Shown here: positions 25,246-41,882 of the stretch, in pieces | Position numbering within the stretch: position 1 is the stretch's first letter | Layout: each line of letters begins with the position of its first letter | Source: Flavobacteriales bacterium | GTDB lineage: Bacteria; Bacteroidota; Bacteroidia; Flavobacteriales_D; Cryomorphaceae | Assembly: GCA_022448105.1 (NCBI GenBank) | Contig: JAKVAV010000008.1 | Location: 62,001 to 126,000 of the forward strand | Reading direction: 5' to 3' | DNA: 64,000 nt | Translations under genes and position numbers: made by a program | Notes under the pieces: model-generated | Databases searched by the model: none | Told to the model about the DNA's origin: nothing | The model's input: the letters and a program-made list of their open reading frames with translations, nothing else

Positions 25246-26031
25246 ATGATTTCGTGCAGAATAAAATACTTGGCCTCTTGTTTTTTAGGAGTGATTAGTT
25301 TCCTGCTATTCTGCAAGAGTTCGTGTGGTCAGACAAATGCTGCAAAACATAAAGATCTTCCCTCTTATCACATTCCCACTTCGGAAGAAAAAAAGAAGGA
25401 GTTCAAAAAATCTATGATTGCACCAGCAGCCCTATTTGTAGCCGGGGGTATCGCATTTACTGACAATGATTTCTGGAGTGATGACGCATGGGCGGATGGA
25501 CGAAATCGATATTTTTCTGATTTCAGAGTCCGAGTCGATGACTATTTGGCATTTGCTCCCGTAGCAACGGTTTATGGTCTTCAGCTTGCAGGAATTAAAG
25601 GGAAACATACCCTTTACGATCAGACAGCTATTTTGCTTAAAGCTGAACTTATAGCATTTACGGTTGTTGGATCGCTAAAAGGGATTACGATGAGAGAAAG
25701 GCCGGATATGGCGAATAACCAGTCATTTCCATCTGGACACACAGCGCAGGCATTCATTGGGGCTACTTTTCTTCATCGCGAATATGGCCACTTAAGTCCG
25801 TGGTATTCTATTGGAGGATACACGGCAGCTACTGCGGTGGGAGCAATGCGGATTATGAACAACAAACACTACTTGAGTGATGTGCTTTTTGGGGCTGGGA
25901 TCGGTATTCTAGTCACCAATTTATCCTACCTCACCCATGGATATAAGCGAACCAAAAGGAGGCAAGGCTTAACGGTATTGCCGACCTATAATCAAGGAAC
26001 GCTGGGATTTTCCGCTGGTCTCAGGTTTTAA
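25246..26031 (+). CDS. PAP2-family phosphatase
   Basis: 261 residues with an N-terminal signal or anchor and several hydrophobic segments. The three acid-phosphatase motifs are complete: K145-x6-R152-P153, PSGH at 162-165, and R202-x5-H208-x3-D212. The two histidines are the expected nucleophile and acid/base. The family hydrolyses lipid phosphates such as phosphatidate or undecaprenyl diphosphate, usually on the periplasmic side of the membrane. Its 3' end overlaps the convergent ppk gene by 4 bases. The substrate is not predictable; an undecaprenyl-PP or phospholipid substrate is the likeliest. Confidence 0.9.
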   Translation: MISCRIKYLASCFLGVISFLLFCKSSCGQTNAAKHKDLPSYHIPTSEEKKKEFKKSMIAPAALFVAGGIAFTDNDFWSDDAWADGRNRYFSDFRVRVDDYLAFAPVATVYGLQLAGIKGKHTLYDQTAILLKAELIAFTVVGSLKGITMRERPDMANNQSFPSGHTAQAFIGATFLHREYGHLSPWYSIGGYTAATAVGAMRIMNNKHYLSDVLFGAGIGILVTNLSYLTHGYKRTKRRQGLTVLPTYNQGTLGFSAGLRF

Positions 26032-28058
26032 ACGAGCTTAACGTTACTGGCACTTGCCTTTGATGCGAGTAAATTATAAAAAGCTTCTTGGGCCGTGACC
26101 TTTGAATCTTCGTCAAAGGGAAAATGATTCCTAAGTTCTCCATCCAGTACTGCAGTTCCTCTGTGAGCCGAGAGTTGAATGGACAAAAATTCCTCTATCT
26201 CCAATTTGAGTGATTCATCTTTCAATGGGAATATCACTTCGATTCTATGGTGAAGATTTCTTTTCATCCAATCAGCAGACCCGAGAAAAATCTCTCGATT
26301 GCCGTCGTTTTCAAATCTGAAGATTCTCCCGTGTTCCAAGAACCGACCGACCACTCGGTAAACAGAAATGTTCTCACTCATTTCTGGATTTAGGCAACAG
26401 ATTCCTCTCACCACCAGCTTCACAATAACTCCATTGGCGGCAGCTTCATAGAGCTTTCTAATCATCTGCTTGTCTTGGAGATTATTCAGCTTAATAGTGA
26501 TTTCGGCCTTCTTGCCCAAGCGAGCAAAATCAATCTCCCGATCGATCAGTTGATTAAATTTCGCCACCATGTTGAATCGGGCTATCAGCAGTTCATTTGG
26601 TTTTGGATCAGTCTTTCCATTTTCCAAATGCAGAAGCAATCGATGAAGCTCTTCGTTCAATTCAGAGTCCGATGTGAGGAGAGCGTGGTCAGTGTAAATA
26701 GCGGCCGTTTTTTCGTTGAAATTGCCCGTGCCGTAAAATGCAATTTTCGATTCACTCACTTCTCTTTTTCGCGCGATTAAAGCCACTTTGGCGTGCACTT
26801 TGATATCTGGAATGCTGTAAATGATCTTCACCCCTGCAGCTCTCATTTTCTCAGACCAGTCTATGTTATTTTGCTCATCAAATCGGGCTTTGAGCTCTAT
26901 GAATACCACAACTTTCTTTCCATTTTTAGCCGCATTTATGAGTGCTTTGGCAATGGCCGAAGACGAAGACATTCTGTACATGGTTGCGCGAATCTCCGTA
27001 ACGGTGTTGTCAGTCGCGGCTTCGTTAAATAGCCGCAATACATAATCGTAAGGATGATAGGGGAAATGCAGAAGCTGATCCTCGTTTTCGATCAAATCGA
27101 GCATAGATTTTGCCTCTTCGATCTTGGAAATTTTAACCTCTTCTTGCTTTGGATATTCTAGTTCTTTGTCACCAGCATTCGGGAAACCGAAGAAGTCGAA
27201 ATAGTTGTGGTATCGAGCGCCATCAGTAAAACTTTGGATATTGATATCCAGCGATTTACCAACCAATGTTCTTACATTCATAGGCGTCCTCTCGTCAATT
27301 AATAGGCGCGTCGGAGCTCCGCCAGAACGCTTGGACAAACTCTTGAGTATTTTCTTTTTGATATCTCCGCGATATTCCTCTTCAAGGTATAGCTCAGCAT
27401 CGCGGTTCATTTTAATGGAATAAGCATCATGGACCTCGTAGTGTGGAAGAAGGATATCCAGATGAATCCTGATAAGGTCGTCTAGATAAATGAAAGCCTG
27501 TTTAGAAGCAGCAGGATAGGAGATAAACCTTGGAGAATCATTGGGGATATTGATATAGATCATTGAAAGTGTCCCAGCATCATCCTTTACCAAAACAGCC
27601 AGGTACAACTGCCGATTTTCCAGAAAAACCTTCTCTTTTTGAAAGTGAATGAGGCCCCTTACTTTGGTTTGGAAATACCTGTTGAGGTAAAATTTTTGTT
27701 TTGAACTGAGTTTTTCACCTTTCCATAACGAGATTCCTTTTTCTTCTAGTTCTGGTAGGACTATATCTCGATAAATTCTTCCGAAATGATTTTGTTGACG
27801 GTTGATGATTTCTTGACTCTCCCTTAGAAGTAGTTTAATCTCTTCTACATCTTTAGGCTTACCTTTGGCATCGGCCACAGCTCGCTGAAAAGCCGCCATT
27901 CTCACTCGATAAAACTCATCGAGGTTGCTCGAATAAATGGCTAGAAATCGCAATTTTTCGATGGTAGGCGTATATGTTTTGGTAGCCTCGAGCATCACTC
28001 TCTCATTGAAAGAGAGCCAGCTTTTATCTCGGTCTTGGAAGGTGGAACCTTTGCTCAT
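26028..28058 (-). CDS. ppk: Polyphosphate kinase 1
   Basis: Makes inorganic polyphosphate from ATP by way of a phosphohistidine enzyme intermediate. At 676 residues it matches the family length. The N domain begins FQDRDKSWLSFNERVMLEA, and the head domain includes YSSNLDEFYRVRMAAF. The first catalytic domain has FHPYDYVLRLFNEAA and KVHAKVALI, which carries the autophosphorylated His. GTGNFNEKTAAIYTDHALLT and RGICCLNP belong to the active site, and GSADWMKRNLHHRIEV to the second catalytic domain. The ATG start is followed by the family N-terminus without extra residues. It sits beside PAP2 and metallophosphatase genes. Confidence 0.96.
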   Translation of the reverse strand: MSKGSTFQDRDKSWLSFNERVMLEATKTYTPTIEKLRFLAIYSSNLDEFYRVRMAAFQRAVADAKGKPKDVEEIKLLLRESQEIINRQQNHFGRIYRDIVLPELEEKGISLWKGEKLSSKQKFYLNRYFQTKVRGLIHFQKEKVFLENRQLYLAVLVKDDAGTLSMIYINIPNDSPRFISYPAASKQAFIYLDDLIRIHLDILLPHYEVHDAYSIKMNRDAELYLEEEYRGDIKKKILKSLSKRSGGAPTRLLIDERTPMNVRTLVGKSLDINIQSFTDGARYHNYFDFFGFPNAGDKELEYPKQEEVKISKIEEAKSMLDLIENEDQLLHFPYHPYDYVLRLFNEAATDNTVTEIRATMYRMSSSSAIAKALINAAKNGKKVVVFIELKARFDEQNNIDWSEKMRAAGVKIIYSIPDIKVHAKVALIARKREVSESKIAFYGTGNFNEKTAAIYTDHALLTSDSELNEELHRLLLHLENGKTDPKPNELLIARFNMVAKFNQLIDREIDFARLGKKAEITIKLNNLQDKQMIRKLYEAAANGVIVKLVVRGICCLNPEMSENISVYRVVGRFLEHGRIFRFENDGNREIFLGSADWMKRNLHHRIEVIFPLKDESLKLEIEEFLSIQLSAHRGTAVLDGELRNHFPFDEDSKVTAQEAFYNLLASKASASNVKLV

Positions 28059-28142: not shown

Positions 28143-28754
28143 CTATTTGGCTACAACGAGTTTACCAGTCGATACTACTTCTGAGTCTTCGTCCAAAATT
28201 CTGAAGACATAGACCCCTTGATTCAGTAACGCTCCGTCGATTCTGAAGAATTCCTCCCTGCTGATCAATCGTTCCTTCACTTGCCCATTGTAAGAAACTA
28301 TTTCAAGTGTATGAGGTCTCCTTCTTTCATTGGAAAAGAATATTTGGCCGATGGATGTAATCGGGTTTGGCCTCACTTGGGTGCTCGAGCCTTCTAGGTT
28401 GATCACTTCTATGGAGACCACCTGCGATGGACCGAGGTTCCCCAGACTTAAGCGATAGTGATTCGTTTGATTTGGTAAGGGCGATTCGTCCACGAAAGAA
28501 AATCGCACAGTGTCAGTGGGACTTCCACAGATCCCCAGAATAGATCCGATCGATGTAAAATTGAGAGAATCACTTGATCTGGTAATGTCAATCCCGTTGC
28601 ATGTTTGACCAAAGTTCATCGTCCAATCTAGAAATACTTTTCCGTTCGTCTCCGTTGCAGAGAAACGCAATTGAATTCGCCCATCTTGTGCAATGGAAGC
28701 CAATGAAATAGTCAGAAGCGTCAGTAGAAGCAGATATAAAAATCCCCTTGCCAT
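28143..28754 (-). CDS. Secreted protein with type IX secretion C-terminal sorting domain
   Basis: 203 residues. An N-terminal signal peptide (LLLLTLLTISLASIAQ) sends it across the inner membrane. The last 75-80 residues form a T9SS type A-like sorting domain: RPNPITSIGQIFFSN, then SYNGQVKE, a GVYVFRIL strand and a closing GKLVVAK. The mature part between them, about 100 residues, is a small beta-rich domain that may itself be a fibronectin-like fold (TNGKVFLDWTM, NHYRLSLGNLGPSQVVSIEV). It is therefore probably surface-exposed or released. There is no enzyme signature; an adhesin or structural role is possible. Confidence 0.82.
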   Translation of the reverse strand: MARGFLYLLLLTLLTISLASIAQDGRIQLRFSATETNGKVFLDWTMNFGQTCNGIDITRSSDSLNFTSIGSILGICGSPTDTVRFSFVDESPLPNQTNHYRLSLGNLGPSQVVSIEVINLEGSSTQVRPNPITSIGQIFFSNERRRPHTLEIVSYNGQVKERLISREEFFRIDGALLNQGVYVFRILDEDSEVVSTGKLVVAK

Positions 28755-28858: not shown

Positions 28859-29782
28859 TCATTCGATAGAAAATACCGGTTGTTTTGCCAGATATGTTGA
28901 AAAGATAGTCGCTCCAGCCGAATTCATGTGATCTATGTTTCTATAGTGCATCTCCTCCAGATGATTGTCAAAAGTTACAAGAGAATAGCGGTCTGCAAGT
29001 TCTGTCAGAAAGTTTTCATACTCTTGAATAAAATCAGGTTTCAAAAATTCGCCCAGCTTATTTGTAGGCATTTCAATGAAAACAATCTCTATGTTTTGTG
29101 CAGCTAAGCTTTTTGTGAGATCGAGTATTTGGAGACCTTTGTCGGCATCGAATAAGTCTTCTCGAAGAGGAGCGTAGAAGTCTTGAGTTCCATCATAAAT
29201 ACTGTCGTTGTAAGCTTCATCTGAAGGATAGAATCCCTTTTGTGTAATGGGTTCAGTGGGTTCAAGGGTTGATTCTACTCTTTTTAGGTTTTCGATTCCT
29301 TTTTCTACCGATTTGGAAAGAAGCTCAAAATAAAGTTTCAGAGAAGCAGTCTCCACTAGGATTTTTTGATTGGAAATAGGTTGGGCTAGGTATCCGTGAA
29401 TTGGATATGTCTCAAAATTATCGCTCAATACTGACAATGTAGTTGGCGAAATACAAAGAGCAATAATCTTAGGGTTTTGTGAAGCTATTGCCAAATAATC
29501 ACTCGACAGAAACTCATAGAATCTTGGTCCAGCTGAGGCTGTGCCGAGGTTAAAAGTGTTGGTTTTTAACGCATGGAAAATTGATGGGTCGATGGAAGAG
29601 TAAGTTTACAAGTTCCCGAGGAAGAGAATGTCGAGACTGTCGAATGCTTGGACCTAATTTAGTCTGACAATGTTTTGATTTGAGGATGTATTGTAATCGA
29701 GATTATCAGCATTTCCTATGAGTCGTAGGAGAGCAAAAAGGATTAGGGCGAAGAAAGTAAGTTTTATGGTGAATGTTTTCAT
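28859..29782 (-). pseudogene. SGNH-hydrolase-like protein, inactivated by two in-frame stops
   Basis: The frame from the ATG at 29782 to the TGA at 28859 would code for about 307 residues with no frameshift, but TAG at 29654-29656 and TAA at 29606-29608 interrupt it. The N-terminus is a membrane anchor (KLTFFALILFALLRLIG). Between the stops lies DSLDILFLGN, the block I strand of SGNH hydrolases. The next codon, where the catalytic Ser is expected, is TTG (Leu), and the TAA follows it. After the stop come TYSSIDPSIFHAL, FNLGTASAGPRFYEFL and a C-terminal HMNSAGA block. It begins 3 bases after the GT-B-like gene and was probably an acyl/acetyl-modifying partner of it. Confidence 0.85.
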
Positions 29783-29785
29783 TTC

Positions 29786-31042
29786 TCAACCATTATAGAT
29801 TTTTCTTGACAAAACATTTAAGATGAGCTCTGTTCCCTTTCCCTCAAACTCCGTCCCTAAATTGTTTTGATAACGCTTTGCCCTATCCCTACGAACAGCT
29901 ATTTCAAAAGGCTCTCCATATTGCTGAATGACTTCTTTTACTGTCAGACAAGCCTCCTTGCAAATACCTTCTTTTACAAATCCGTAGTAATCGATGTTTT
30001 CGCCAGTGGAGGCGAAGTAGATGGGCTGGCGTTTGAGGATAATGGCTTCAAGCAAAATATTACTATCACCCGAGATGATCTTGCCGCATCTCAAAATGAA
30101 GTGGCCGGCTTTTTCATCTTTTGAGGAAATCTCCCATCCGCGGTCTGAGAAGCGTTTTTGGATCGCCTCATCCATCAAGGGGTGAAACCTCATGCAAAAA
30201 GGGATTTTCATTTCTTCGAGCTTCTCACACAGCTCAAAGTTTTTGTCCACCTCGTGATAGACCATCCCAAAGCAAACTCCCACCAGCTCTTTCTTTTCAT
30301 CAATTTCCCTGCTCTTCAGGTACTTGTCGTACTTCATCGCACCTACTAGGTGAATATCGGTATTCGTCTTACCCGATGAGAGGTACTTTTCTTTGGCATT
30401 TTCTCCATCAAGAAAAGCAACATCCGCCTTGAGTGGGGGAAACCTTTCATTTACTGAAGCGTGCTGAATGTAGATGGTTTTTATCCCGGCGTCTCGAGCC
30501 GCCACAAATCCAACCTGGCTAAGACCTGAATGATCATTGGAAGCAATGAATGCTTTTACATAATCTTTAGAACGCTCGAAAGCTTGACGATAATAGTTGT
30601 ATTGACCCAAGCGACGGTAGAAGTTGTAGTAGCGGGATCGAAATACCTCTTTGTCTCTTCCTTTAAAAGAGTAAAACCATCTCAGCATTTTTGACGAATA
30701 CTTAAGTGATTCTGATTTCAGAAAGGCGTCTGGCAATTGTTCTTCTGTAAAATCTGGATTTTCAGAGATCAAATCTGCTTGATCCTCTAAAGCTTCAAAT
30801 AATGGAATGAGGGCCTCTCTCTGATTGATCGTGTTGAAGGAGAAAACGTAGGGTTTTGTGAAGGTTTTTGGCTTAACTTGTTTGATTACATCTTTTGCCA
30901 ACTTCACCTCACGGTGTTTCTTTCTCTGATCAGCAATGATTTCTCTAAATCCAACTCTCATCTCTGGAATGGGGCGGCCGAATGGCTCCCAGAAATTGAT
31001 GAGGTCTAGTTCTTTTAGTAAATTATGGGAGTTCTGCTTCAA
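29786..31042 (-). CDS. GT-B-like protein of surface-glycan type
   Basis: 418 residues, soluble, with no signal peptide. It lacks a perfect family motif but has the layout of GT-B or CDP-glycerol-transferase-like proteins. VKAFIASNDHSGLSQVGFVAARDAG and IKTIYIQHASVNERFPPL fit the interdomain region; IPFCMRFHPLMD and CGKIISGDSNILLEAI resemble the donor-binding end, with the SGDSN...E pattern. The ATG at 31042 lies about 40 bases below a consensus promoter. It is followed after 3 bases by the SGNH pseudogene. A transferase building a cell-surface polymer or glycan is the best guess. I do not see the PseG N-terminal signature. Confidence 0.6.
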   Translation of the reverse strand: MKQNSHNLLKELDLINFWEPFGRPIPEMRVGFREIIADQRKKHREVKLAKDVIKQVKPKTFTKPYVFSFNTINQREALIPLFEALEDQADLISENPDFTEEQLPDAFLKSESLKYSSKMLRWFYSFKGRDKEVFRSRYYNFYRRLGQYNYYRQAFERSKDYVKAFIASNDHSGLSQVGFVAARDAGIKTIYIQHASVNERFPPLKADVAFLDGENAKEKYLSSGKTNTDIHLVGAMKYDKYLKSREIDEKKELVGVCFGMVYHEVDKNFELCEKLEEMKIPFCMRFHPLMDEAIQKRFSDRGWEISSKDEKAGHFILRCGKIISGDSNILLEAIILKRQPIYFASTGENIDYYGFVKEGICKEACLTVKEVIQQYGEPFEIAVRRDRAKRYQNNLGTEFEGKGTELILNVLSRKIYNG

Positions 31043-31086: not shown

Positions 31087-31117
31087 CAAATGTATTGATT
31101 CTAGAAGGCCACTCAAA
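31087..31117 (-). promoter_or_regulatory. Bacteroidota sigma-type promoter for the GT-B-like gene
   Basis: On the minus strand TTTG (31117-31114), 19 bases, then TACATTTG (31094-31087). This is an exact match to the Bacteroidota -33 TTTG / -7 TAnnTTTG consensus with standard spacing. It lies about 45 bases upstream of the start codon at 31042. Confidence 0.8.
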
Positions 31118-31267: not shown

Positions 31268-32278
31268 ATGCTAGACAATAAGTCGATATTAATTACGGGT
31301 GGAACGGGTTCGCTTGGTCAGGCATTGACTGAGCACATATTGAGTAATCATCCCCAAGTAAAAAGGCTAGTCATTTTTTCGCGAGATGAGCAAAAACAGT
31401 TTGTAATGGCTCAGAAGTTCCCTTTCTCTAAGTATCCATGTATCCGTTACTTTTTGGGAGATGTAAGAGATGGAGATCGACTGAAAAGAGCGCTAAAGGG
31501 AATCGACTATGTGATACATACCGCAGCCATGAAGCACGTGCACTTGGCGGAGTACAATCCCATGGAGTGCGTTAAGACGAATATAATTGGTGCAGAAAAT
31601 CTCATCAATGCTTGTCTCGAAACCGAAGTAGAAAGAGTAGTAGCACTTTCTACCGACAAAGCGGCTGCTCCAATAAATCTTTACGGTGCAACCAAATTAG
31701 CTTCAGACAAGTTGTTTGTGGCCGCAAATAATATTGCCGGATGGAACCCTATAAGATTCTCTGTAGTACGCTACGGTAATGTCATGGGTTCTAATGGTTC
31801 GGTCATTCCATTTTTCCTAAAGAAAAGAAAAGAAGGTGTATTACCGATTACGGATCCTTCAATGACACGTTTTAATATTCCTTTGCAAGGAGGTGTTGAG
31901 CTAGTCATGTATGCCCTAGAGCATGCCTGGGGAGGAGAGATTTTTGTTCCAAAGATCCCTTCCTACCGCATTACTGATGTGGCAGAGGCAATAGGTCCAG
32001 ATTGCGAAAAACCCATAGTTGGAATTCGTCCAGGAGAGAAGGTTCATGAGGAGATGATTACAATGTCGGACTCTTTTTACACCTACAACCTTGGAAATTA
32101 TTTTACGATTTTACCGACAGTTCCACGTTGGAACACATCGGAGTACATCGAGCACTTCAAAGCCGAAAAAGTTGAAGAGGGCTTTAGGTACAATTCTTCT
32201 GACAATGACCAATGGGAGACGGTGGACAGCTTACGTGAATCTATTAAAGAACATGTAGACCCTAATTTCTCAGTGTAG
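31268..32278 (+). CDS. pseB: UDP-N-acetylglucosamine 4,6-dehydratase (inverting), PseB
   Basis: First enzyme of pseudaminic acid synthesis: 4,6-dehydration of UDP-GlcNAc with C5 inversion. It is an extended SDR of 336 residues. GGTGSLGQA at 11-19 binds NADP. The active site has the PseB-type STDKAAAPINLYGATK, with D130, K131 and Y139 in the positions known from FlaA1. HTAAMKHVHLAEYNP and TRFNIPLQGGVELV are also typical of the inverting subfamily. It is the first gene of the operon, 33 bases upstream of pseC, below a TATATTTG promoter. Confidence 0.96.
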   Translation: MLDNKSILITGGTGSLGQALTEHILSNHPQVKRLVIFSRDEQKQFVMAQKFPFSKYPCIRYFLGDVRDGDRLKRALKGIDYVIHTAAMKHVHLAEYNPMECVKTNIIGAENLINACLETEVERVVALSTDKAAAPINLYGATKLASDKLFVAANNIAGWNPIRFSVVRYGNVMGSNGSVIPFFLKKRKEGVLPITDPSMTRFNIPLQGGVELVMYALEHAWGGEIFVPKIPSYRITDVAEAIGPDCEKPIVGIRPGEKVHEEMITMSDSFYTYNLGNYFTILPTVPRWNTSEYIEHFKAEKVEEGFRYNSSDNDQWETVDSLRESIKEHVDPNFSV

Positions 32279-32311
32279 TTTTTATGGAAATTGGCAATTG
32301 ATTATTAGAAG

Positions 32312-33529
32312 ATGGAGTCACCCAAAAAGCAGAAAGTGTCAAGACCAATTCCTTACGGTAGACAACACATTACCGATGGGGATATATCAGTAGTTGTTGA
32401 AGCATTGAAGTCTGATTATCTAACTCAAGGACCAAGAATCAATGAGTTTGAAGAAGCGTTTGCTGAATATGTTGGATCAAAATACGCTGTTGCTGTTGCT
32501 AATGGAACCGCCGCTTTGCATCTAAATGCAATCGCTCTCGGTGTGGAACCTGGAAAGAAAGTGATCACTACACCTATTACCTTTGCTGCTTCTGCCAATT
32601 GTGTGCGCTACTGTGGAGGTGAAGTTGTGTTTTCGGATATTAATCCTGACACCTATCTCCTGGATATTGATAATGTAAGAGCACTCATAGAATCCTCACC
32701 CAAAGGCACGTACTCCGGAATAATTCCGGTTGATTTTGCTGGGCGATCTGTGGATTTGGAAGCTTTCAGGCAGCTGGCAGATGAACATGATCTATGGATT
32801 ATAGAAGATGCCTGCCACGCCCCCGGAGCTTCATTTATAAATTCTCTCGGAGAAACCACCAAGGCAGGTTCTGGACGTTATGCAGATCTCGCAATTTTTT
32901 CCTTTCACCCAGTAAAGCATATTGCGGCTGGTGAGGGCGGTATGATTACCACAGATGACCAAGAGCTTTATGAAAGACTCTTGAACCTTCGTACTCATGG
33001 TATCTCAAGAGATGCTTCCCGTTTTCAGAATTCGATGGACATAGCGACTGGACACCAAAGTAATGCAAGCGATCAGTATCCTGGATGGTATATGGAAATG
33101 CAAGAGCTGGGATACAACTATAGAATAACAGACTTCCAAGCCGCATTGGGTGCGAGTCAACTGAAGAGAGCAGAGCCAGGAATCGCAAGGAGGCGCACCA
33201 TTGCAGCTCGCTACAAAGACGCTTTCAAAGACTTGAAAGAGGTTCTTGATAAGAACCCTGGAGATGATGGTCACCACGCGTACCATCTTTATGTGATTGA
33301 GGCAGAACGTAGATTAGATTTGTATAATCATTTAAGGAGCAAGAGTATTTTCGTGCAAATTCACTACATCCCGCTTCATCTAATGCCATACTACAAGAGA
33401 GATGGAGTTATCTTTCACCAGTCAGAAGCCTACTATCAAAGATGCTTGAGTTTACCCATGTTTCCCACTTTAACCGACGAAGAACAAGAATTTGTAATTG
33501 ATGAAATTAGAAGATTCTACAAGCAGTAA
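32312..33529 (+). CDS. pseC: UDP-4-keto-6-deoxy-HexNAc aminotransferase, PseC
   Basis: PLP-dependent transaminase that converts the PseB product to UDP-4-amino-4,6-dideoxy-beta-L-AltNAc, with glutamate as donor. 405 residues of the DegT/DnrJ/EryC1 fold. PYGRQHITDGDISVV at the N-terminus is PseC-like. FSFHPVKHIAAGEGG carries the Schiff-base lysine K202. IEDACHAPGA contacts the cofactor and YNYRITDFQAALG lies at the dimer interface. An insertion around residues 235-265 (ATGHQSNASDQYPGW) is a little longer than in most relatives. The following aldo/keto reductase gene overlaps its end by 29 bases. Confidence 0.94.
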   Translation: MESPKKQKVSRPIPYGRQHITDGDISVVVEALKSDYLTQGPRINEFEEAFAEYVGSKYAVAVANGTAALHLNAIALGVEPGKKVITTPITFAASANCVRYCGGEVVFSDINPDTYLLDIDNVRALIESSPKGTYSGIIPVDFAGRSVDLEAFRQLADEHDLWIIEDACHAPGASFINSLGETTKAGSGRYADLAIFSFHPVKHIAAGEGGMITTDDQELYERLLNLRTHGISRDASRFQNSMDIATGHQSNASDQYPGWYMEMQELGYNYRITDFQAALGASQLKRAEPGIARRRTIAARYKDAFKDLKEVLDKNPGDDGHHAYHLYVIEAERRLDLYNHLRSKSIFVQIHYIPLHLMPYYKRDGVIFHQSEAYYQRCLSLPMFPTLTDEEQEFVIDEIRRFYKQ

Positions 33530-34361
33530 GCTTGCAATTGGCTCTGTTCAATTCGGTTTGGATTATGGGATTTCAAATCAAGAAGGTAAAACTAGCCCAG
33601 CCGAAGTCGGGCAAATTCTGAAACGGGCATCTGAGAATGGTATTTCGCTAATTGATACAGCATATGCCTACGGCGAAAGTGAAATGGTCTTAGGGCAAAA
33701 TGACCTGAGTTCCTTTCAATTAGTTTCTAAGTTTCCAGCTTGCCCGACTCATCCATTGAGAAATTTGCTTGAAGCGTCGCTGGATAGATTAGAAGTGGAG
33801 TCCATTTATGGATACATGGCGCATCGGGCAGAGGATCTAATTGAAAAACCTTCTCTCTGGGAAGAGCTTCGAGAGCTGAAATCAGACGGTAGAGTGTATA
33901 AAATTGGTTGTTCTCTTTATCGTCCTGAGACTTTACAATGTCTTTGGGAGAAAGGCTTTCATCCTGAAATTATTCAAATTCCTTTCAATGTTTTTGATCA
34001 GCGTTTTCAGCATTTACTAATGAGGATAAAAGACACCGGATGCGAGATACATGCGCGCTCCGCATTTCTGCAAGGTATTTTCTTTAAAGACCCTCGAAAT
34101 CTCGATTCATTTTTTGATCCCTTAAAAGAACCAATTCGAAATATTCAAACTAGATTCCCGAATGCAGCAGATAGAGCAGCACAGCTTGTGCATTTTTGCC
34201 TAAAAAACCCGTTAATTGATAGAGTGATCATTGGAGTCATTTCTGCGAATCAACTCGATGAGAATTTGAGGGCATTATGGTCGAATAACATATCCAATCT
34301 GGAACCACAAGAGTTCACCGAAGAACTATTAATGCCTCATTTATGGCCGAAAGGGATCTAA
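33501..34361 (+). CDS. Aldo/keto reductase family protein
   Basis: About 286 residues of the AKR (beta/alpha)8 barrel. LAIGSVQFGLDYGIS opens the barrel. ISLIDTAYAYGESE gives the catalytic Asp and Tyr, and GYMAHRAED the His position. FNVFDQRF and VIIGVISANQLDENL are typical of AKRs found in sugar-nucleotide loci. The ATG at 33501 is chosen over a TTG one codon upstream. It overlaps pseC by 29 bases and the next gene by 19, so it is firmly inside the nonulosonate operon. Its job is probably reduction or oxidation of a sugar intermediate not present in the standard Pse pathway. Confidence 0.88.
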   Translation: MKLEDSTSSKLAIGSVQFGLDYGISNQEGKTSPAEVGQILKRASENGISLIDTAYAYGESEMVLGQNDLSSFQLVSKFPACPTHPLRNLLEASLDRLEVESIYGYMAHRAEDLIEKPSLWEELRELKSDGRVYKIGCSLYRPETLQCLWEKGFHPEIIQIPFNVFDQRFQHLLMRIKDTGCEIHARSAFLQGIFFKDPRNLDSFFDPLKEPIRNIQTRFPNAADRAAQLVHFCLKNPLIDRVIIGVISANQLDENLRALWSNNISNLEPQEFTEELLMPHLWPKGI

Positions 34362-35227
34362 ATTTTGGTGTAATTGGTCTCAGTGAGGGAAATGGTCATC
34401 CATACTCTTGGTCCGCTATATTTAATGGCTATGATAAGGTGGCAATGAGGAAATGCCCGTTTCCTGCAATTCCTGAGTATTTAGCTGAACAAAAGTTCCC
34501 AGAAGATTCTATTAAAGGTGCCAAGGTATCCCATATCTGGACTCAGGACCTGTCCATATCTAAAGAGGTCGCTAGTGCTTCGTTGATCGAAACAGTTTGC
34601 CTCCATCCAGACGATATGATCGGGAGGGTAGATGGAGTACTGTTGGCCAGAGACGACGCAGAGCATCATAAGGAAATGGCGGAGCCATTTTTGGAAAATG
34701 GAATACCCGTTTTTATCGATAAACCAATTGCGTTGGACGTTAAGTCTGCTCAGGAAATCTTCTCTTTTGGTGATCTCGTCTATTCTTGCTCTTCTCTCCG
34801 GTTTGCTGAAGAGTTTGCTCTTCATCATTTGGAAGGACTCGGCGACATTCATTTCATCAAAGGAACTGTACCCAACTCATGGGAGAAGTATGCTGTTCAC
34901 ATCATTGAACCAGCATTAAACCTAATTCCGAATAGAGGTCATCTGACCGCTTGGAACAGAAAGTCAAAAGCAGAGTCAAGATCACTTAAAGCGGATTGGT
35001 CTAGTGGAATTACGACAGAATTTATCACTACTGGCTCAGTAAGGTCTCCTCTTCAACTCACCATTACCGGAAACGAAGGCTCCAAAATTCTCAAGTTCAC
35101 AGATAGTTTTTTAGCTTTTAAACGATCACTTCAATATTTTCTTGATTTGATCAATGGTAAAGTGGCTAACTTGCCAAGGGAATTAACACTAGACGTGGTA
35201 GATCTCATTGAAAAAGGAATCGAATGA
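34343..35227 (+). CDS. Gfo/Idh/MocA-family oxidoreductase
   Basis: 294 residues. The N-terminal Rossmann half has NFGVIGLSEGNGHPYSW in place of the usual GxGxxG, so the dinucleotide loop is atypical. DGVLLARDDAEHH and FLENGIPVFIDKPIALDV contain the EKP-like (here DKP) motif of the family. The C-terminal half is shortened compared with the usual 330-380 residues. It overlaps the AKR gene by 19 bases and the SDR gene by 4 (ATGA). It would act on a sugar or sugar nucleotide in the same pathway; the reaction is unknown. Confidence 0.8.
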   Translation: MAERDLNFGVIGLSEGNGHPYSWSAIFNGYDKVAMRKCPFPAIPEYLAEQKFPEDSIKGAKVSHIWTQDLSISKEVASASLIETVCLHPDDMIGRVDGVLLARDDAEHHKEMAEPFLENGIPVFIDKPIALDVKSAQEIFSFGDLVYSCSSLRFAEEFALHHLEGLGDIHFIKGTVPNSWEKYAVHIIEPALNLIPNRGHLTAWNRKSKAESRSLKADWSSGITTEFITTGSVRSPLQLTITGNEGSKILKFTDSFLAFKRSLQYFLDLINGKVANLPRELTLDVVDLIEKGIE

Positions 35228-35970
35228 AGAAATGTATCCTCATAACCGGTGGTACAGGCAAAATTGGGAAAACCATTAGCTTGCACTTTGCCAAAGAAGG
35301 ACATAGAGTTCTTTTTACTTCTACAACCCAAGATAAGGTTGATGATTTGCTCAAAGTAGGGAGAGATCTAGAAGGGGAGTTGATTCCAATTATAAGCGCT
35401 TTTGAGAACGATGATTCTGCAAGCGAAGTCTTCAAACGAATTAAAGCTTCAGGACCATTCCCGAGTACAATTATTCACAATGCGCGGAGCTTAAGTTCTT
35501 TAGCCATTGGAGATAACGGTGTTTCGGAAAGGAGCAATCTTTTAAAGGAGTATGATATGGCCGTTGCTTTCCCTTATCAACTCACGATGAAACTCAGAAC
35601 GCAATCACTCAAGAATATAGTTTTTGTTTCATCCATCTACGGAATGGTTGCTCCAACACCTTCTCTTTATGATAAATTCGAAGAGTCATCTCCTATTCAA
35701 TATGGTATCGCTAAGTCGGCTCAGCTTCATCTCACCAAAGAGTTGGCTGTTAGACTCGCTCCTGAGGTAAGAGTAAATGCTGTGTCATATGGAGGAATTA
35801 TGGGGCGAGTAGATACGGAGTTCCAAAAACGTTATAAAAACTTAACACCAATGCAGAAAATGCTGGATGAAAAAGATGTGATCGGCCCTATTGACTTCCT
35901 GGTGAGTGATAAATCAAAAGATATTACTGGTCAGAATATTCCTGTCGATGGCGGCTGGACAATTTGGTAG
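35224..35970 (+). CDS. Short-chain dehydrogenase/reductase
   Basis: A classical SDR of 248 residues. ITGGTGKIGKTI is the cofactor loop (TGxxxGxG-like), IIHNA the NNAG-equivalent, and VSSIYG carries the Ser. QYGIAKSA is the catalytic YxxxK. VRVNAVSYGGI and a C-terminal NIPVDGGWTIW close the fold. It resembles the SDRs of legionaminic/pseudaminic-type loci (PtmA group). It overlaps the preceding oxidoreductase by 4 bases and ends 3 bases before the cytidylyltransferase gene. Confidence 0.9.
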   Translation: MKKCILITGGTGKIGKTISLHFAKEGHRVLFTSTTQDKVDDLLKVGRDLEGELIPIISAFENDDSASEVFKRIKASGPFPSTIIHNARSLSSLAIGDNGVSERSNLLKEYDMAVAFPYQLTMKLRTQSLKNIVFVSSIYGMVAPTPSLYDKFEESSPIQYGIAKSAQLHLTKELAVRLAPEVRVNAVSYGGIMGRVDTEFQKRYKNLTPMQKMLDEKDVIGPIDFLVSDKSKDITGQNIPVDGGWTIW

Positions 35971-35973
35971 GTA

Positions 35974-36786
35974 ATGAAGACGGTAGCATGCATTATTGCC
36001 AGAACGAATAGTAGTCGATTGCCTCTCAAGGTGTTGAGAGATTGTGGGTTAGGGTATAGCGTTTTGGAGCTTTTAATTCGTCGGGTTAAGACAGTTTCGG
36101 CAATTAACGAGATATATCTGTGTACCTCTTCCCATCCTGGAGATGATATCATGGAGGACATTGCTATTCGTGAGAATATTAAACTTTATCGAGGTTCTGA
36201 AGAGAGTGTTATTGATCGAATGATAGAGGTTGGCAAGAGAACAGAGGCTGATGCTGTAATTCGCATTACAGGAGATAACCCGCTAACATCGGTCGAGTAT
36301 TTACCTTCTCAAATTAAGGCGATGGAAAAGCACGATCTCGATTATGTGAGACTGGTTGATGTGCCAATCGGAGCTACCGCAGAATTGATCAGATACTCTG
36401 CCCTTGTTGATTGTTATGAGAGCATGGATCCCAATATTAGTGAGTACATGATGTTATTCCTATTTAATCCTGATACATATCGTTGTGGTATTTTGAAGCC
36501 TTTTTCAGAGGATTATTCTGACTACAGCGTCACGGTTGACACATCTGAAGATCTTGCGCGATTGAAACAAACAGTAAAATTTGGAAAGGAGCGAATAGAG
36601 AGTCCAGAAAGAATAAGCCTCGATATTATTCTAGATGCCTACAGAAAAAACACTCATTGGCCAGCACTTAAGCTATCAAATGGAGGACCTGTTAAAATGC
36701 CGTATGGCAAAAGCATGCCCTTCAATGAGTTTAAGAGAGATATGGATAGTCGAAAGGATAAGTCACACCAAATTAGAATGAACTAA
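35974..36786 (+). CDS. SpsF-type cytidylyltransferase
   Basis: 270 residues of the NTP-transferase fold, SpsF/acylneuraminate cytidylyltransferase group. VACIIARTNSSRLPLKVL is the nucleotide-binding loop with the conserved R and K. EIYLCTSSHPGDD and VIRITGDNPL provide the metal-binding Asp. DYSDYSVTVDTSEDL is the late conserved block. It is the only nucleotidylyltransferase in the operon, so it is the candidate for activating the final nonulosonic acid with CMP (a PseF-like role). It shares TAATG with the next gene. Assignment of the exact sugar is an inference. Confidence 0.85.
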   Translation: MKTVACIIARTNSSRLPLKVLRDCGLGYSVLELLIRRVKTVSAINEIYLCTSSHPGDDIMEDIAIRENIKLYRGSEESVIDRMIEVGKRTEADAVIRITGDNPLTSVEYLPSQIKAMEKHDLDYVRLVDVPIGATAELIRYSALVDCYESMDPNISEYMMLFLFNPDTYRCGILKPFSEDYSDYSVTVDTSEDLARLKQTVKFGKERIESPERISLDIILDAYRKNTHWPALKLSNGGPVKMPYGKSMPFNEFKRDMDSRKDKSHQIRMN

Positions 36787-37751
36787 TGTATATCTACGCT
36801 GAAACTGCTTTTCATCATGAAGGTGATATTAATTACCTAAAGCGACTGGTTTCTGCAGTAGCTCGTACTGGCTGTCAGGGTATTAAATTTCAGGTTCTTC
36901 CCAGTGCAGCGGATTTTATTAGCTCAAGGCATTCTCAGTACTCTTCTTTAGCCTCTTATTGTTTAAATATGTCGCAGTGGGATGAGGTCTTTTCTCACAC
37001 TTCAGCAGAAGGGCTTGAGATTGTATTGATGCCGCTAAGTCTCGAAGCATTGACACTAGCCGATCAGCACGAGGTGCGATTTTTAGACGTTCATTCTGTA
37101 TCCTTTTATGATGAGCGTTTGCTTGAAGCCATTCAAGTGAGAGACGAAAAAATTATTCTTGGAATCGGGGGTAGAACTAATGAAGAGATTGAGCAGTTCT
37201 ACAAAAGATTTCAGAATCGCCTCAAAGTTTTGATGTTAGGTTTTCAGAGTTTTCCTAGCAAGCTCAGCGAAATTAGGCTTGGGAGAATAGCTGACCTTAA
37301 GAGAACTTATTCAGACTTGGAAATTGGCTATGCGGATCACTCAGGATACGATGAGGAAGATGCTGTCAGATCTAATGAGTACGCTTCCCTTCTGGGTGCA
37401 ACGTTTTTTGAGAAGCATGTCACACTCGATGAAGGCGTGAAAAGGGTTGATTATGAGAGTGCAGTTGGGATTGAAAGATTCAAGCTTATCATTGAGAGAC
37501 TAAATTTTGTCAAAAAAAATATTGTTGATGGAAGCTCAGTATCTATGTTTCCCTCCGAAAGGAAATACAGAGATCGCGAAGCGAAACTCGTGGCCAGCAG
37601 GGATATAAAATCAGGAGAAACCTTCTCCTTAAATAACCTTGCCTTAAAAATGACAGATATGGAAGCTCCATATTCACGGTATGATCAAGTTTTAGGGAAA
37701 ACAGCTCATTCAGATATTATGAAAGATTCACCAATCACAAATTTAGATTGA
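36786..37751 (+). CDS. Divergent NeuB/SpsE-family synthase with SAF domain
   Basis: 321 residues of the sialic acid synthase TIM barrel plus a C-terminal antifreeze-like (SAF) domain. GIKFQVLPSAADF matches the KxQ motif, GYADHSGYD the usual LSDHT region, and FFEKHVTLDEGVKRVD the EKH motif. LVASRDIKSGETFSLNNLALK begins the SAF part. The FQSFPSKLSEIRL stretch replaces the usual YPAP..D..L, and identity to the pseI product in the same operon appears low. It probably condenses PEP with a six-carbon sugar, but on a substrate different from PseI. It overlaps both neighbours by 1 base. Confidence 0.82.
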   Translation: MYIYAETAFHHEGDINYLKRLVSAVARTGCQGIKFQVLPSAADFISSRHSQYSSLASYCLNMSQWDEVFSHTSAEGLEIVLMPLSLEALTLADQHEVRFLDVHSVSFYDERLLEAIQVRDEKIILGIGGRTNEEIEQFYKRFQNRLKVLMLGFQSFPSKLSEIRLGRIADLKRTYSDLEIGYADHSGYDEEDAVRSNEYASLLGATFFEKHVTLDEGVKRVDYESAVGIERFKLIIERLNFVKKNIVDGSSVSMFPSERKYRDREAKLVASRDIKSGETFSLNNLALKMTDMEAPYSRYDQVLGKTAHSDIMKDSPITNLD

Positions 37752-38311
37752 TGACCCTGAGGCGTGTATACAAACCACTGCATTCTGATTCTTTTAGTTT
37801 AGGAGATTTTCAATTGGTTCCGATTCGTTTGGAAGATCGCTATCACATCATGGAATGGAGAAATCAACAATTATTTCATTTGCGCCAAGAACGTCCTCTC
37901 ACGAAACAAGACCAGGATCATTATTTTGATGAGGTTGTAGAGGAGCTTTTTGAGCAAGAAAAACCAATCCAATTGCTCTTCTCCCTCCTTGAGCGTGGCA
38001 AATGTATTGGCTATGGCGGACTGGTTCATATCAATTGGAAAGATCTAAATGCAGAGGTTTCTTTTATCATGAATACTGAGCTCGAAGCATTAAGATTTAA
38101 TGAACTTTGGGGCGCTTATCTTTCACTGATCAAGATGGTTGCATTTGAGAACTTAATGCTTCGAAAAATCTATACGTATGCCTACGATTTGAGACCTCAC
38201 TTATACCCTGTTTTGATTAATGCAGGATTTAAAGAAGAAGCCCGGCTTAGGGATCATGTTCAATTGGACAGAAAGTTTTTTGATGTTTTAATTCATTCTT
38301 GTTTGAGATGA
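37751..38311 (+). CDS. GNAT-family acetyltransferase (RimL-like)
   Basis: About 186 residues. FQLVPIRLEDRYHIMEWRNQQ is the typical N-terminal strand-helix of RimJ/RimL-like GNATs. IGYGGLVHINWKDLNAEVSFIM forms the central beta core, and the acetyl-CoA region is the LIKMVAFENLMLRKIYTYAY stretch, with no clear Q/RxxGxG/A. INAGFKEEARLRDHV near the end is typical. The ATG at 37751 is taken rather than the TTG one codon earlier. It probably N-acetylates an amino sugar in the pathway, but could modify the finished nonulosonate. Confidence 0.8.
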   Translation: MTLRRVYKPLHSDSFSLGDFQLVPIRLEDRYHIMEWRNQQLFHLRQERPLTKQDQDHYFDEVVEELFEQEKPIQLLFSLLERGKCIGYGGLVHINWKDLNAEVSFIMNTELEALRFNELWGAYLSLIKMVAFENLMLRKIYTYAYDLRPHLYPVLINAGFKEEARLRDHVQLDRKFFDVLIHSCLR

Positions 38312-38763
38312 GGTATTCGTTGCGGCGAGCAAATACAGCAGATGAGGAGGTTACATTTCGCTGGGTAAATGATCCCGTCATTCGAAAGTTTTCTCATAGA
38401 GGGGAGTGCGTTTCCCGTGACGATCATAATTACTGGTTTTCTAAGGCCATTAAATCAAATGATCATGCTTATTACCTCCTTGAATCAGAGCAAGGCGAGC
38501 CTGTCGGTTCAATACGATTTGATATAAAAGGAGTTAAAGCGAAGATTAATTATCTTATTGATCCAAAGTATCATGGTCAAGGTTTAGGACGAACACTCCT
38601 CAAATTGGGGATGAACAGCTTAAAAAATGACCATCCAGAGATCGATGAAGTTTTTGGTCAGGTATATGAAAAAAATCTAGCCTCCATTAAAATTTTTGAG
38701 AAACTAAATTATAGTGCACGTAAAACAGAAGGTGACCTCCTAACTTTCGCAAGTTCATTATGA
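38308..38763 (+). CDS. GNAT-family acetyltransferase, PseH candidate
   Basis: 151 residues. YSLRRANTADEEVTFRWVNDP is the N-terminal block, and VGSIRFDIKGVKAKINYLIDP the core. YHGQGLGRTLLKLGMN holds the acetyl-CoA pyrophosphate loop (QGLG). VYEKNLASIKIFEKLNY is the family C-terminal block. The ATG at 38308 overlaps the preceding stop (ATGA). Its length and position directly before pseI agree with PseH, which acetylates the 4-amino group of the PseC product. The neighbouring GNAT is the other candidate, so the assignment between the two is not certain. Confidence 0.83.
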   Translation: MRYSLRRANTADEEVTFRWVNDPVIRKFSHRGECVSRDDHNYWFSKAIKSNDHAYYLLESEQGEPVGSIRFDIKGVKAKINYLIDPKYHGQGLGRTLLKLGMNSLKNDHPEIDEVFGQVYEKNLASIKIFEKLNYSARKTEGDLLTFASSL

Positions 38764-39806
38764 GAATAGGTGATTTCCAATTATGCCAAGGCCGAGTATT
38801 CATCATTGCTGAACTATCGGCTAATCACAATCAAGATATACAGGTGGCCATAGATACCATTCGGGCAGCAAAAGAAGCTGGAGCAGACGCCATTAAACTT
38901 CAAACTTACACTCCTGACACTATAACTATAGATAGTGATCAAGAATACTTCAAGATTGACGGGACCATTTGGAATGGTCGCAATCTATATGACTTGTACA
39001 AAGAAGCTCATACGCCTTGGGAATGGCATAAGCAGCTCTTTGATGTGGCCGAAGAGGAAGGTCTGATTTGTTTCTCTTCTCCTTTTGATGTCACTGCTGT
39101 AGACTTTCTTGAAAACTTAAGTGTACCCGCATATAAAATTGCCAGCTTCGAAATCAGAGATGTGGGATTAATAGAGTATGCCGCCAAGCAAGGAAAGCCC
39201 ATCATTATCAGCACGGGTATAGCAGAAGAAGAGGACATTGAGCTTGCCGTGCAGACCTGTCGTCAAGCTGGGAATGATCAAATCGTTTTATTGAAATGCA
39301 CATCTTCCTATCCAGCTCCAATAGATTTAGCAAACCTAAAGACCATGGTGGATATGCGGAAAAAGTACAATGTACTCACAGGTTTATCTGATCATACCAA
39401 TGGAGAAATTGTTCCGACTGTAGCTGCCTCTCTCGGAGCATGTCTCATTGAAAAACACTTTATATTGGATCGTTCAATTGGAGGCCCTGACGCGTCGTTC
39501 TCTTTAGATCCTGCAGCGTTCAAGAAGATGGTGACTCATGTTAGAAGTGCTGAACTGGCTTTGGGTAAGGTGACCTACGATGTACCTAACAAAATAAAAG
39601 CGAGTCAGAAATTTGGTCGATCCCTCTTCGTAGTGAATGATATTGCAGAGGGAGAACTCTTCACGGCTGCTAATATTCGGTCCATCCGACCAGGTAATGG
39701 ACTACACCCAAAGTATTTGAAAGATGTCTTAGGTAGAAAAGCGAAATCTTCACTTAGTCGAGGAACTCCTCTGAAGAAGGATGATGTACTTGGTCTAGGA
39801 CTTTGA
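38760..39806 (+). CDS. pseI: Pseudaminic acid synthase, PseI
   Basis: Condenses 2,4-diacetamido-2,4,6-trideoxy-L-altrose with PEP to give pseudaminic acid. 348 residues: FIIAELSANHNQDI, AIKLQTYTPDTITI, FSSPFDVTAVDFLE and ISTGIAEEEDI are PseI hallmarks. LTGLSDHTNGEI and LIEKHFILDRSIGGPDASFS complete the TIM-barrel active site, followed by an SAF domain (GRSLFVVNDIAEGE). It starts in ATGA overlap with the GNAT gene and ends 12 bases inside the convergent exporter gene. With pseB and pseC it marks the operon as a pseudaminic-acid-type pathway. Confidence 0.95.
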   Translation: MRIGDFQLCQGRVFIIAELSANHNQDIQVAIDTIRAAKEAGADAIKLQTYTPDTITIDSDQEYFKIDGTIWNGRNLYDLYKEAHTPWEWHKQLFDVAEEEGLICFSSPFDVTAVDFLENLSVPAYKIASFEIRDVGLIEYAAKQGKPIIISTGIAEEEDIELAVQTCRQAGNDQIVLLKCTSSYPAPIDLANLKTMVDMRKKYNVLTGLSDHTNGEIVPTVAASLGACLIEKHFILDRSIGGPDASFSLDPAAFKKMVTHVRSAELALGKVTYDVPNKIKASQKFGRSLFVVNDIAEGELFTAANIRSIRPGNGLHPKYLKDVLGRKAKSSLSRGTPLKKDDVLGLGL

Positions 39807-41024
39807 AACCTCTCCCGGCAAATAGACTACTGCTGGGACATAACCAAGTGTGCTGCTGGCCTTTACTCGAAATTTCGTCCAATATCGATAAAGTCCGAGT
39901 AGATTCCATTTTTTAAGCACCATATCCCGCTGTTGGATGAAGATGCTGACACTGTATTCGCCATTAATGAAAATGCAGTTAGGTATTACAGCTTGAAGAT
40001 CGTGGATGTCCTGGTCATTTTGAATCGCCTCCTGAAATTGGAAACTGTCATATATCCCGACAATTTTCAAATCCTTATCTGTAATCTGAACTTTCACATG
40101 AAACCAGTCGATATTTCGATCTACTTTCACTCGGATACGGACGTTTAAATCGTCTTGATAATCAATAGCTGGAATTCCTCCAAGCGAGGCATATTTCTGC
40201 GATGGAACGACTTCGACCTCTTCGACTTGAGCAAATTCATTGAACTCTAGCTTCGGGTCATTTCCACCGAAATGCTCGAAGTATTTATCAATTCCTGAAG
40301 AAACATCTTCACCATAATGCTCCATTTTGCCGTATTCCATCAAGAGAATCTTGTTGCTGATGATCGCCACATTGGGCATGGAATGACTAACGAAGATCAC
40401 GGCGGCGTTCTTCATCATCTCATTGATCTTGTTGAAGGATTTTATCTTGAAACCAGAGTCGCCAACAGCAAGTACTTCATCGAGAATCAGAACATCGGGC
40501 TTCATGTGAACGGCTACAGAAAAACCAAGTCTTACCTTCATGCCTGAGCTGTAGTAGGCTACAGGAGTATCTATAAATTTCTCTATTTCAGAAAACTCGA
40601 TTATTTCGTCAATGACCTGATCGATTTCCTTCTTGGGAATCCCAAGTACAGATCCATTATTGTAGATGTTTTCTCTACCAGTAAGTATGGGGTTGAATCC
40701 AGACCCTAATTCTATCAAAGCCCCAACGCGACCTTCGATGGTAATCTTACCCGTGTCAGGTTTGATGAGGCCGTTGAGCATTTTGAGCATCGTGCTTTTC
40801 CCAGCACCATTGCGGCCAATAAGACCAAGACACTCTCCTCTTCTCAATTCGAAGTTTATACCATTTACCGCCCAAAACTCTTTAGGACGAAGATTGGCTT
40901 GATCATGTCTCCCACCTAGTAATTCGCTCGTAAGATCCTTTACTCCATACCACAGACTTGTCTTTAAATCCCGACAGAACTTCTTAGAAACACCTTCTAC
41001 CTTAACGAGAACCTCTCCTGCCAT
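39795..41024 (-). CDS. wzt: Polysaccharide ABC exporter, ATP-binding subunit (Wzt)
   Basis: 409 residues. The ATPase domain has Walker A GRNGAGKST at 70-78, signature YSSGMKVRLGFSVA, Walker B VLILDEVLAVGD and a late switch His (FVSHSM). Residues about 255-409 are a beta-rich extra domain (FNEFAQVEEVEVVPSQ..., NVRIRVKVDRNIDWFHVKVQI) like the C-terminal carbohydrate-binding domain of Wzt proteins, which can recognise a capped glycan end. It lies 1 base after the permease gene on the minus strand and overlaps the pseI end by 12 bases. It exports an O-antigen or capsule-type glycan; a nonulosonate-containing one is inferred. Confidence 0.93.
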   Translation of the reverse strand: MAGEVLVKVEGVSKKFCRDLKTSLWYGVKDLTSELLGGRHDQANLRPKEFWAVNGINFELRRGECLGLIGRNGAGKSTMLKMLNGLIKPDTGKITIEGRVGALIELGSGFNPILTGRENIYNNGSVLGIPKKEIDQVIDEIIEFSEIEKFIDTPVAYYSSGMKVRLGFSVAVHMKPDVLILDEVLAVGDSGFKIKSFNKINEMMKNAAVIFVSHSMPNVAIISNKILLMEYGKMEHYGEDVSSGIDKYFEHFGGNDPKLEFNEFAQVEEVEVVPSQKYASLGGIPAIDYQDDLNVRIRVKVDRNIDWFHVKVQITDKDLKIVGIYDSFQFQEAIQNDQDIHDLQAVIPNCIFINGEYSVSIFIQQRDMVLKKWNLLGLYRYWTKFRVKASSTLGYVPAVVYLPGEVSKS

Positions 41025-41025
41025 G

Positions 41026-41868
41026 CTAAGCGTTCATTCGTTCGATTAAGATGGGCATGGCCAGTCGATAAGCTACAAAAACGATGATGAGCATGATGAT
41101 GATGACCAGATTCATCCACAAATATCCATTCAGGAATTCTGGTTCCACTCCAGTCAGCCAGTCGCGTGCGGTCATAATAAGTGGAGTAATTGGATTATGT
41201 CTTACAATTTGAGATGAAAATCCTTCTTTAGGCACTGCATAGACTACGGGAGTAGTGTACATCAAAAATTGCATTACCAGTGGAATGGCTTTGCTGATGT
41301 CAGTGTAGAGCATGCCCAGTGGAGTGAGTAGAAGACCGATCGCCGTACCTCCTAAAACCAGTGATACAATTCCCAGAGGAAAGAGCAGAAGACTCCAGCC
41401 GCCGAAGTATCCCATGATGGCTAAGGCGATCACCAAAATAATCAACTTTACTCCAGCATTGAACAAACCTTGGTAAATACCAGCCACTACTAAAGCTTCT
41501 CGAGGGAAATTTACCTTAGCAAGTATGCTTTTATTCTGGGTTGTTTTCTCAATGGGCGCTTGCATGCTTTCCATAAAAATGGCCCATATCATGGTTCCCG
41601 AAAACACGTAAATTGGATAAGGTATGTCCGTTTCACCCATAGCAACAATTCCGCTGTTGTTTAGGAAAACCCAAACTAATGTATTTGCAAGTGGCAAAAT
41701 AAAGGCCCATAGAATCCCTAAGAAACTTTGCCTGTATAGCGCTTTTATATCCCGAATGGTAAGCCTTTTGGCTAAATCATTTCCGCGGCGAATGTCGACA
41801 ATCATTTCTCTGATCATCAACCACGGTTTTCGAATGTTTGAGTGAGGTGTATAAACTCGTTGTTGCAT
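41026..41868 (-). CDS. wzm: Polysaccharide ABC exporter, permease (Wzm)
   Basis: About 280 residues of the ABC-2 transporter family. The N-terminal helix MIREMIVDIRRGNDLAKRLTIRDIKALYRQSFLGILW is the amphipathic gate segment of Wzm-type permeases. About six membrane helices follow, with FSGTMIWAIFMESM and PVVYAVPKE as typical loops. The ATG at 41868 is preferred over a TTG at 41877, because the latter falls inside a TATCTTTG promoter-like element. It pairs with the ATPase gene 1 base downstream and carries lipid-linked glycan across the inner membrane. Confidence 0.92.
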   Translation of the reverse strand: MQQRVYTPHSNIRKPWLMIREMIVDIRRGNDLAKRLTIRDIKALYRQSFLGILWAFILPLANTLVWVFLNNSGIVAMGETDIPYPIYVFSGTMIWAIFMESMQAPIEKTTQNKSILAKVNFPREALVVAGIYQGLFNAGVKLIILVIALAIMGYFGGWSLLLFPLGIVSLVLGGTAIGLLLTPLGMLYTDISKAIPLVMQFLMYTTPVVYAVPKEGFSSQIVRHNPITPLIMTARDWLTGVEPEFLNGYLWMNLVIIIMLIIVFVAYRLAMPILIERMNA

Positions 41869-41874
41869 TCGCGG

Positions 41875-41882
41875 CAAAGATA
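41875..41882 (-). promoter_or_regulatory. Possible -7 element of the wzm-wzt operon
   Basis: TATCTTTG on the minus strand fits TAnnTTTG exactly, but no good TTTG lies 19 bases upstream. If it is used, the transcript would start within a few bases of the ATG at 41868 and be nearly leaderless. Confidence 0.35.

Follow-up and report, generated by a model that had tools for sequence, protein, structure and literature searches.

MBOAT-SGNH acyltransferases include PatA/PatB, DltB/DltD and AlgI/AlgX, and bacterial MBOATs carry a C-terminal FXYXXF motif, whose tyrosine passes acetyl to the SGNH partner in the PatA/PatB system, as described in PMC12148441. PMC9487903 lists DUF1574 (PF07611) among the SGNH families for which no activity is known. 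With respect to surface-glycan loci, sequence replacements altering a complex sugar pathway are described for the K loci of Acinetobacter baumannii in PMC7200062. Pseudogenes and the exchange of sugar-synthesis genes are each already well known. The locus described here, from a Flavobacteriales bacterium, combines an SGNH-type pseudogene with a set of sugar-synthesis genes that differs from the set found at the same site in a sister genome of the same genus. The window, i.e. the whole stretch of DNA analysed, comprises 64,000 nucleotides of genome G000 (3.52 Mb in 99 contigs, 92.72% complete), and the pseudogene sits inside a surface-glycan locus, in line with the context proposed in the preliminary description of this DNA.

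Inactivation of an SGNH-type gene by point changes

Translation of 28859-29782 on the minus strand gives a single frame of 308 codons with a terminal TGA at 28861-28859, in which the TAG at 29656-29654 and the TAA at 29608-29606, already pointed out for the frame running from 29782 to 28859, were found as claimed. The relevant features are as follows.

28859..29782, minus strand: SGNH-type pseudogene, full read-through frame; 308 codons including the end, 51% identity to a stop-free 309-aa copy from the same genus
29654..29656, minus strand: premature TAG, codon 43, from translation
29609..29611, minus strand: Leu (TTG), codon 58, where the catalytic Ser of block I belongs, from translation and alignment
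29606..29608, minus strand: premature TAA, codon 59, from translation
29657..29782, minus strand: 42 codons still readable from the start, with one hydrophobic stretch

These three separate lesions, the TAG, the Leu and the TAA, lie within 51 bases and none of them is a frameshift. With X placed at the stops, the frame aligns end to end with the stop-free 309-aa protein found at the same place in the sister (51% identity), which upholds the proposal of inactivation without frameshift. In this alignment codon 58 faces Ser, and since the block I Ser is present in all 20 relatives used, the reported replacement of the nucleophile by Leu is also borne out. The 248-codon piece past the second stop matches the sister protein with E = 3.2e-74, a sequence similarity that is beyond chance. 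At the two stop positions, where the ancestral codons proposed earlier would encode Lys or Gln, this nearest stop-free copy, only 51% identical, carries Leu and Tyr. The region 28859-29782 is best read as a real pseudogene, whose lesions are point changes.

When the post-stop fragment was used as query, one copy was found in G000 at E 0.001 and four of 60 genomes gave a match, the window's own included, while named genomes, among which near records may be left out, yielded no relative. The stop-free sister protein matched 21 of 399 genomes of the order, including those of the window and the sister, and internal stops were present in the window's copy only (one TAG and one TAA). The set of 20 relatives was obtained from these matches by dropping the window's own copy and L025 (a different, long protein), taking L002 for the sister and adding L004, which came from the post-stop-fragment search; L003 is a duplicate of L007, and two members (L016 and L018) reach contig ends. 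Window and sister retain the block V His. Where 16 of 18 outgroup rows show the block V Asp, both copies carry Asn, and a further Asp immediately precedes the His. Additional SGNH relatives of the family occur near MBOAT matches in G000, G001, G002 and G005; those of G000 lie on contigs C3 and C89, and their matched stretches are without stops.

The hydrophobic stretch within the first 42 codons is probably a membrane anchor. A single-sequence model of the read-through product has a pLDDT of 37.4, too poor for fold assignment, and within this otherwise useless model a helix is placed at residues 2-23 with pLDDT of about 75. Among the ORFs that begin later with a bacterial start codon, the longest spans 29494-28859 and is missing block I.

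Genetic code, assembly quality and age of the decay

An explanation by read-through or recoding, under which a protein with an altered active site would still be made, would fit the open remainder of the frame and its ordinary codon usage (0.056 as compared to a gene mean of 0.052, sd 0.028), but is very improbable, given that none of the 34 tRNAs of G000 (92.72% complete) has an anticodon for TAA or TAG, that RF1 is over its cut-off (a second release-factor-like match falls below), and that TAA or TAG ends 76 of the 97 orthologues agreeing in length within 15 codons (54 TAA, 22 TAG and 21 TGA). The nucleophile is gone too, and none of the relatives has the stops, whose sharing by intact homologues had been named as a pointer to recoding. 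With no suppressor tRNA, RF1 present and TAA and TAG as normal gene ends, recoding or suppression was rejected.

Similarly, an error of assembly or a mixture of strains, with the gene open in the organism and the consensus wrong, could be suspected from the division of the genome into 99 contigs and from N bases elsewhere in the contig, and yet three separate lesions within 51 bases without a frameshift and the complete absence of N from the window argue against it. Assembly noise was assessed by setting 400 kb of sister sequence against contig C78 in full (183.8 kb, with the window in it) and against 13 more stretches of G000, each 20 kb long, from which few extra matches came. Out of 326 non-overlapping sister ORFs, 136 had a match and 110 were well matched (40% identity and 60% coverage, with shorter or less similar genes outside the comparison). 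Four of these 110 showed an internal stop. Upon inspection, one was the SGNH gene; in the other three the stop preceded the likely start codon, belonged to an antisense shadow frame or fell at the match end, leaving the SGNH gene as the only convincing break. In the reverse comparison (360 ORFs, 143 matches, 109 well matched, four with a stop) no convincing break was seen in the sister, two stops being near the match start and two resembling shadow frames. Assembly noise is thus an unlikely source of the lesions as judged from these alignments, and the error explanation as a whole is improbable. Seven single N bases occur at 140681 to 159933 of contig C78, outside the window, and are perhaps strain differences left in the assembly.

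Because synonymous sites between window and sister are saturated (pS 0.79), dN/dS is of no use for the age of the decay. The two stops correspond to about 45, 55 or 69 neutral substitutions under three transition biases, with 95% limits of 5 to 248, and such wide limits mean that the age is poorly known; a recent loss, as suggested before, is compatible with these values, which do not establish it. Summed over 19 overlapping outgroup comparisons, 352 changes are confined to the window copy and 276 to the sister copy, and at outgroup-conserved columns the corresponding changes number seven and six, with 34 columns kept by both copies and 52 by neither, so that this relative-rate comparison gives no clear excess of decay in the window copy. 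The SGNH gene ranks 18th from the lowest identity among 115 reciprocal contig pairs. Its second-position differences (0.32) are at the top, tied with one gene, among 18 genes of similar identity (the SGNH gene itself and 17 genes within 0.08 of its identity), which is a hint, no more, of relaxation.

Predicted function of the lost enzyme and of its operon partner

The gene had been called a hydrolase. A tailoring acyltransferase of the MBOAT-SGNH kind is a likelier ancestor, because 16 of the 19 non-sister relatives lie behind an MBOAT-motif protein and the only PDB sequence matches of the SGNH profile that make sense are two DltD chains, which are also its best ones (E 5.8e-4 and 2.7e-3, both weak). 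In these 16 cases a protein ending in FxYxxF is encoded directly upstream, and all ten of those scanned with Pfam are MBOAT; for the other three relatives, no upstream ORF was found for two and an unrelated frame was picked for one. PF07611 is matched by 13 of the 21 aligned proteins (best E 5.7e-11), and the NCBIfam lipoprotein family TIGR02171 by two of the 21; the sister protein itself matches no family of Pfam or NCBIfam at E 0.01. The non-sister relatives most likely acylate envelope glycans. No MBOAT gene stands beside the copies of this genus, whose neighbours in window and sister are a GT-B gene and a T9SS-tail gene. With no MBOAT adjoining it, and with Asn in the place that Asp usually takes in block V, even the sister copy is a putative enzyme.

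The neighbours of the pseudogene on its own strand are the following.

29786..31042, minus strand: intact gene with a predicted GT-B fold, 418 aa; upstream in the operon, 73% identical to that of the sister
28143..28754, minus strand: T9SS sorting-tail protein, downstream of the pseudogene; Por_Secre_tail, E 2.6e-06
31087..31117, minus strand: weak promoter-like match ahead of the GT-B and SGNH genes, with TTTG, 19 nt and TACATTTG

The pseudogene starts 3 nt past the end of the GT-B gene (10 nt in the sister), which together with the modelled fold of the neighbour agrees with the coupling to a GT-B-like gene put forward earlier. An AlphaFold2 model built with 30 relatives from named-genome loci (pLDDT 86.1, pTM 0.85) shows the GT-B fold for this product. 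Its top fold matches are non-hydrolysing UDP-GlcNAc 2-epimerases (best Z 22.2, rmsd 3.7 over 300 residues), with TagF, TarL, polysialyltransferase, WaaA and PseG lower in rank; the profile found no sensible match among PDB sequences, and PF04464 is matched by three of 31 relatives. Given where it lies in these loci, together with the PF04464 matches, the protein may transfer a nonulosonate, and it might alternatively have an epimerase or PseG-like role. Its identity to the sister's protein is at the median of the 115 pairs of the contig (0.737). An alignment of this protein searched against named genomes led to 57 loci, and in the flanking DNA examined none had an SGNH relative beside the GT-B gene. 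The T9SS-tail gene adjoins the stop-free SGNH copy in the sister too (56% identity). The promoter-like match follows the Bacteroidota-type consensus (TTTG, 19 nt, TACATTTG); four such matches occur in the window, with 2.48 expected, which by itself is not significant. Further downstream, a 676-aa ORF (26028-28058, minus strand), presumably polyphosphate kinase, lies between PAP2-like and T9SS-tail genes; in the sister nothing stands between these two, and no match to this ORF was found within 45 kb.

Different nonulosonic acid sets at one site

On the far side of the GT-B gene, window and sister differ, a point absent from the preliminary description.

31268..39806, plus strand: ten genes, a predicted pseudaminic-acid cassette, at the place of the sister's KDN-type set by synteny
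31268-32278, 32312-33529 and 38760-39806, plus strand: PseB, PseC and PseI, respectively, over NCBIfam cut-offs
31268..39806, plus strand, remaining genes: aldo/keto reductase-like, Gfo/Idh-like, SDR, cytidylyltransferase, NeuB-like and two GNAT, below cut-offs or assigned by Pfam domain
39795..41877, minus strand: ATPase and permease genes of an ABC exporter, 86% and 84% identity with the sister; Pfam ABC_tran and ABC2_membrane, with a weak Wzt_C

A single strand of the sister holds, in this order, the exporter genes for permease and ATPase, then those for a four-helix protein, a NeuB-like synthase, a protein of 276 aa, a KDN-9-phosphatase and a NeuB-cytidylyltransferase fusion, and finally the GT-B, SGNH and T9SS-tail genes. 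The window keeps the exporter (86 and 84%), GT-B (73%) and T9SS-tail (56%) genes, with ten genes of opposite strand between exporter and GT-B gene. In G002, which belongs to a different genus of this family, the same four biosynthetic genes recur in unchanged order, enclosed by exporter and GT-B gene and with 66 to 79% identity, so that the order exporter, NeuB-like protein, 249-276-aa protein, KDN-9-phosphatase, fusion and GT-B is common to both, and the genes enclosed look like a KDN-type nonulosonic-acid set. The KDN-9-phosphatase of the sister scores 248.8 bits as compared to a curated cut-off of 180, a cut-off exceeded in two of eight family genomes (G001 and G002) and in none of 14 controls. 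A genome-wide search of G000 for genes of the sister's set covered this phosphatase, and its best match reached 95.9 bits (cut-off 180).

For the cassette of the window, PseB scores 500.1 bits (curated cut-off 407.75), PseC 448.8 (423.5) and PseI 515 (340.25), and PseC is over its cut-off in one of eight family genomes, that of the window. PseH reaches 49.4 bits (cut-off 93.1), the cytidylyltransferase is assigned by Pfam, and no gene of the cassette is named PseG. Three of the ten genes remotely match (25 to 35%) the NeuB-like and fusion proteins of the sister, and the composition of the cassette bears no mark of foreign origin. The cassette holds two NulO synthase-like genes, with 36786-37751 below the NeuB and PseI cut-offs and 38760-39806 over that of PseI. 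The Gfo/Idh-like gene has a relative in one other of the 399 order genomes, G396, where the first five cassette genes stand in the same order; this similar pseudaminic cassette (L177, 1615-15383), from another family of the order, is near an ABC ATPase gene. In G005 (L075, 3371-9200), a third nonulosonate set lies next to the exporter ATPase and the GT-B gene; its NeuB exceeds the cut-off, whereas its LegC-like aminotransferase stays below the one that applies to it. Three different sets thus occur beside exporter and GT-B gene in one bacterial family, so exporter and GT-B gene stay together while the sugar set varies.

A model for the decay and comparison with known systems

The explanation favoured, with modest confidence, is that a tailoring enzyme related to the MBOAT-SGNH kind was orphaned by the replacement of a KDN-type set by a pseudaminic cassette and decayed afterwards. 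In the ancestor, a membrane-anchored SGNH enzyme would have stood at the end of an operon for synthesis, transfer and export of a KDN-type glycan, an arrangement that is probably the older one because it is common to two genera. The pseudaminic-acid cassette, on the opposite strand, would then have taken the place of the operon's central genes for sugar synthesis, with the exporter and the GT-B gene staying in use. The SGNH enzyme, which would have acylated the old sugar, would have lost its substrate and decayed by point changes leading to two stops and the loss of the nucleophile. That the exchange preceded and caused this decay is suggested by a single contrast, that of the window's genome with its sister in the genus. 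In G002 the KDN-type set occurs with no SGNH relative next to it, so the enzyme is not obligatory for a KDN-type sugar. A narrower version, in which the stop-free SGNH protein is a KDN-dedicated acyltransferase working without an adjacent MBOAT, the exchange of sets made it useless and the decay dates the glycan switch, is rather doubtful.

An appreciable probability, if short of even, attaches to a real pseudogene whose decay is unrelated to the cassette, with a dispensable surface-modifying gene lost by drift or by selection (e.g. phages or predators) before or after the swap. SGNH loss and cassette difference co-occur only once, the absence of the SGNH gene beside GT-B in all 57 named loci points to a general dispensability, and the gene ranks 18th of 115, among the contig's less conserved ones. 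Set against this, the loss was selective, given that the operon's GT-B gene is intact, and the sole other genome with the gene keeps its copy beside a KDN-type set. The orphaning model predicts that broken SGNH copies occur only together with the new, pseudaminic set.

The case is ordinary as a pseudogene and modestly interesting as a trace of a glycan switch, and the pairing of broken gene and exchanged set points, on purely genetic grounds, to a substrate for an SGNH group that is so far uncharacterised. A literature search joining pseudaminic acid with SGNH gave as its sole match a work on Acinetobacter phages, which does not show that the case is unpublished. Compared with MBOAT-SGNH systems, the likeness lies in the 16 of 19 non-sister relatives placed directly behind an FxYxxF-ending protein and in DltD as best PDB match, whereas a GT-B gene precedes the copies of this genus, which carry Asn in place of the block V Asp, and the window copy is also without the Ser. 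DUF1574 is matched by 13 of 21 aligned proteins, with the sister protein giving no match at E 0.01. As in the A. baumannii K loci, conserved export and transferase genes flank a variable complex-sugar block; unlike there, the present locus belongs to the family holding Cryomorpha, has an ABC exporter, exchanges whole nonulosonate sets and carries a dead tailoring gene at its edge.
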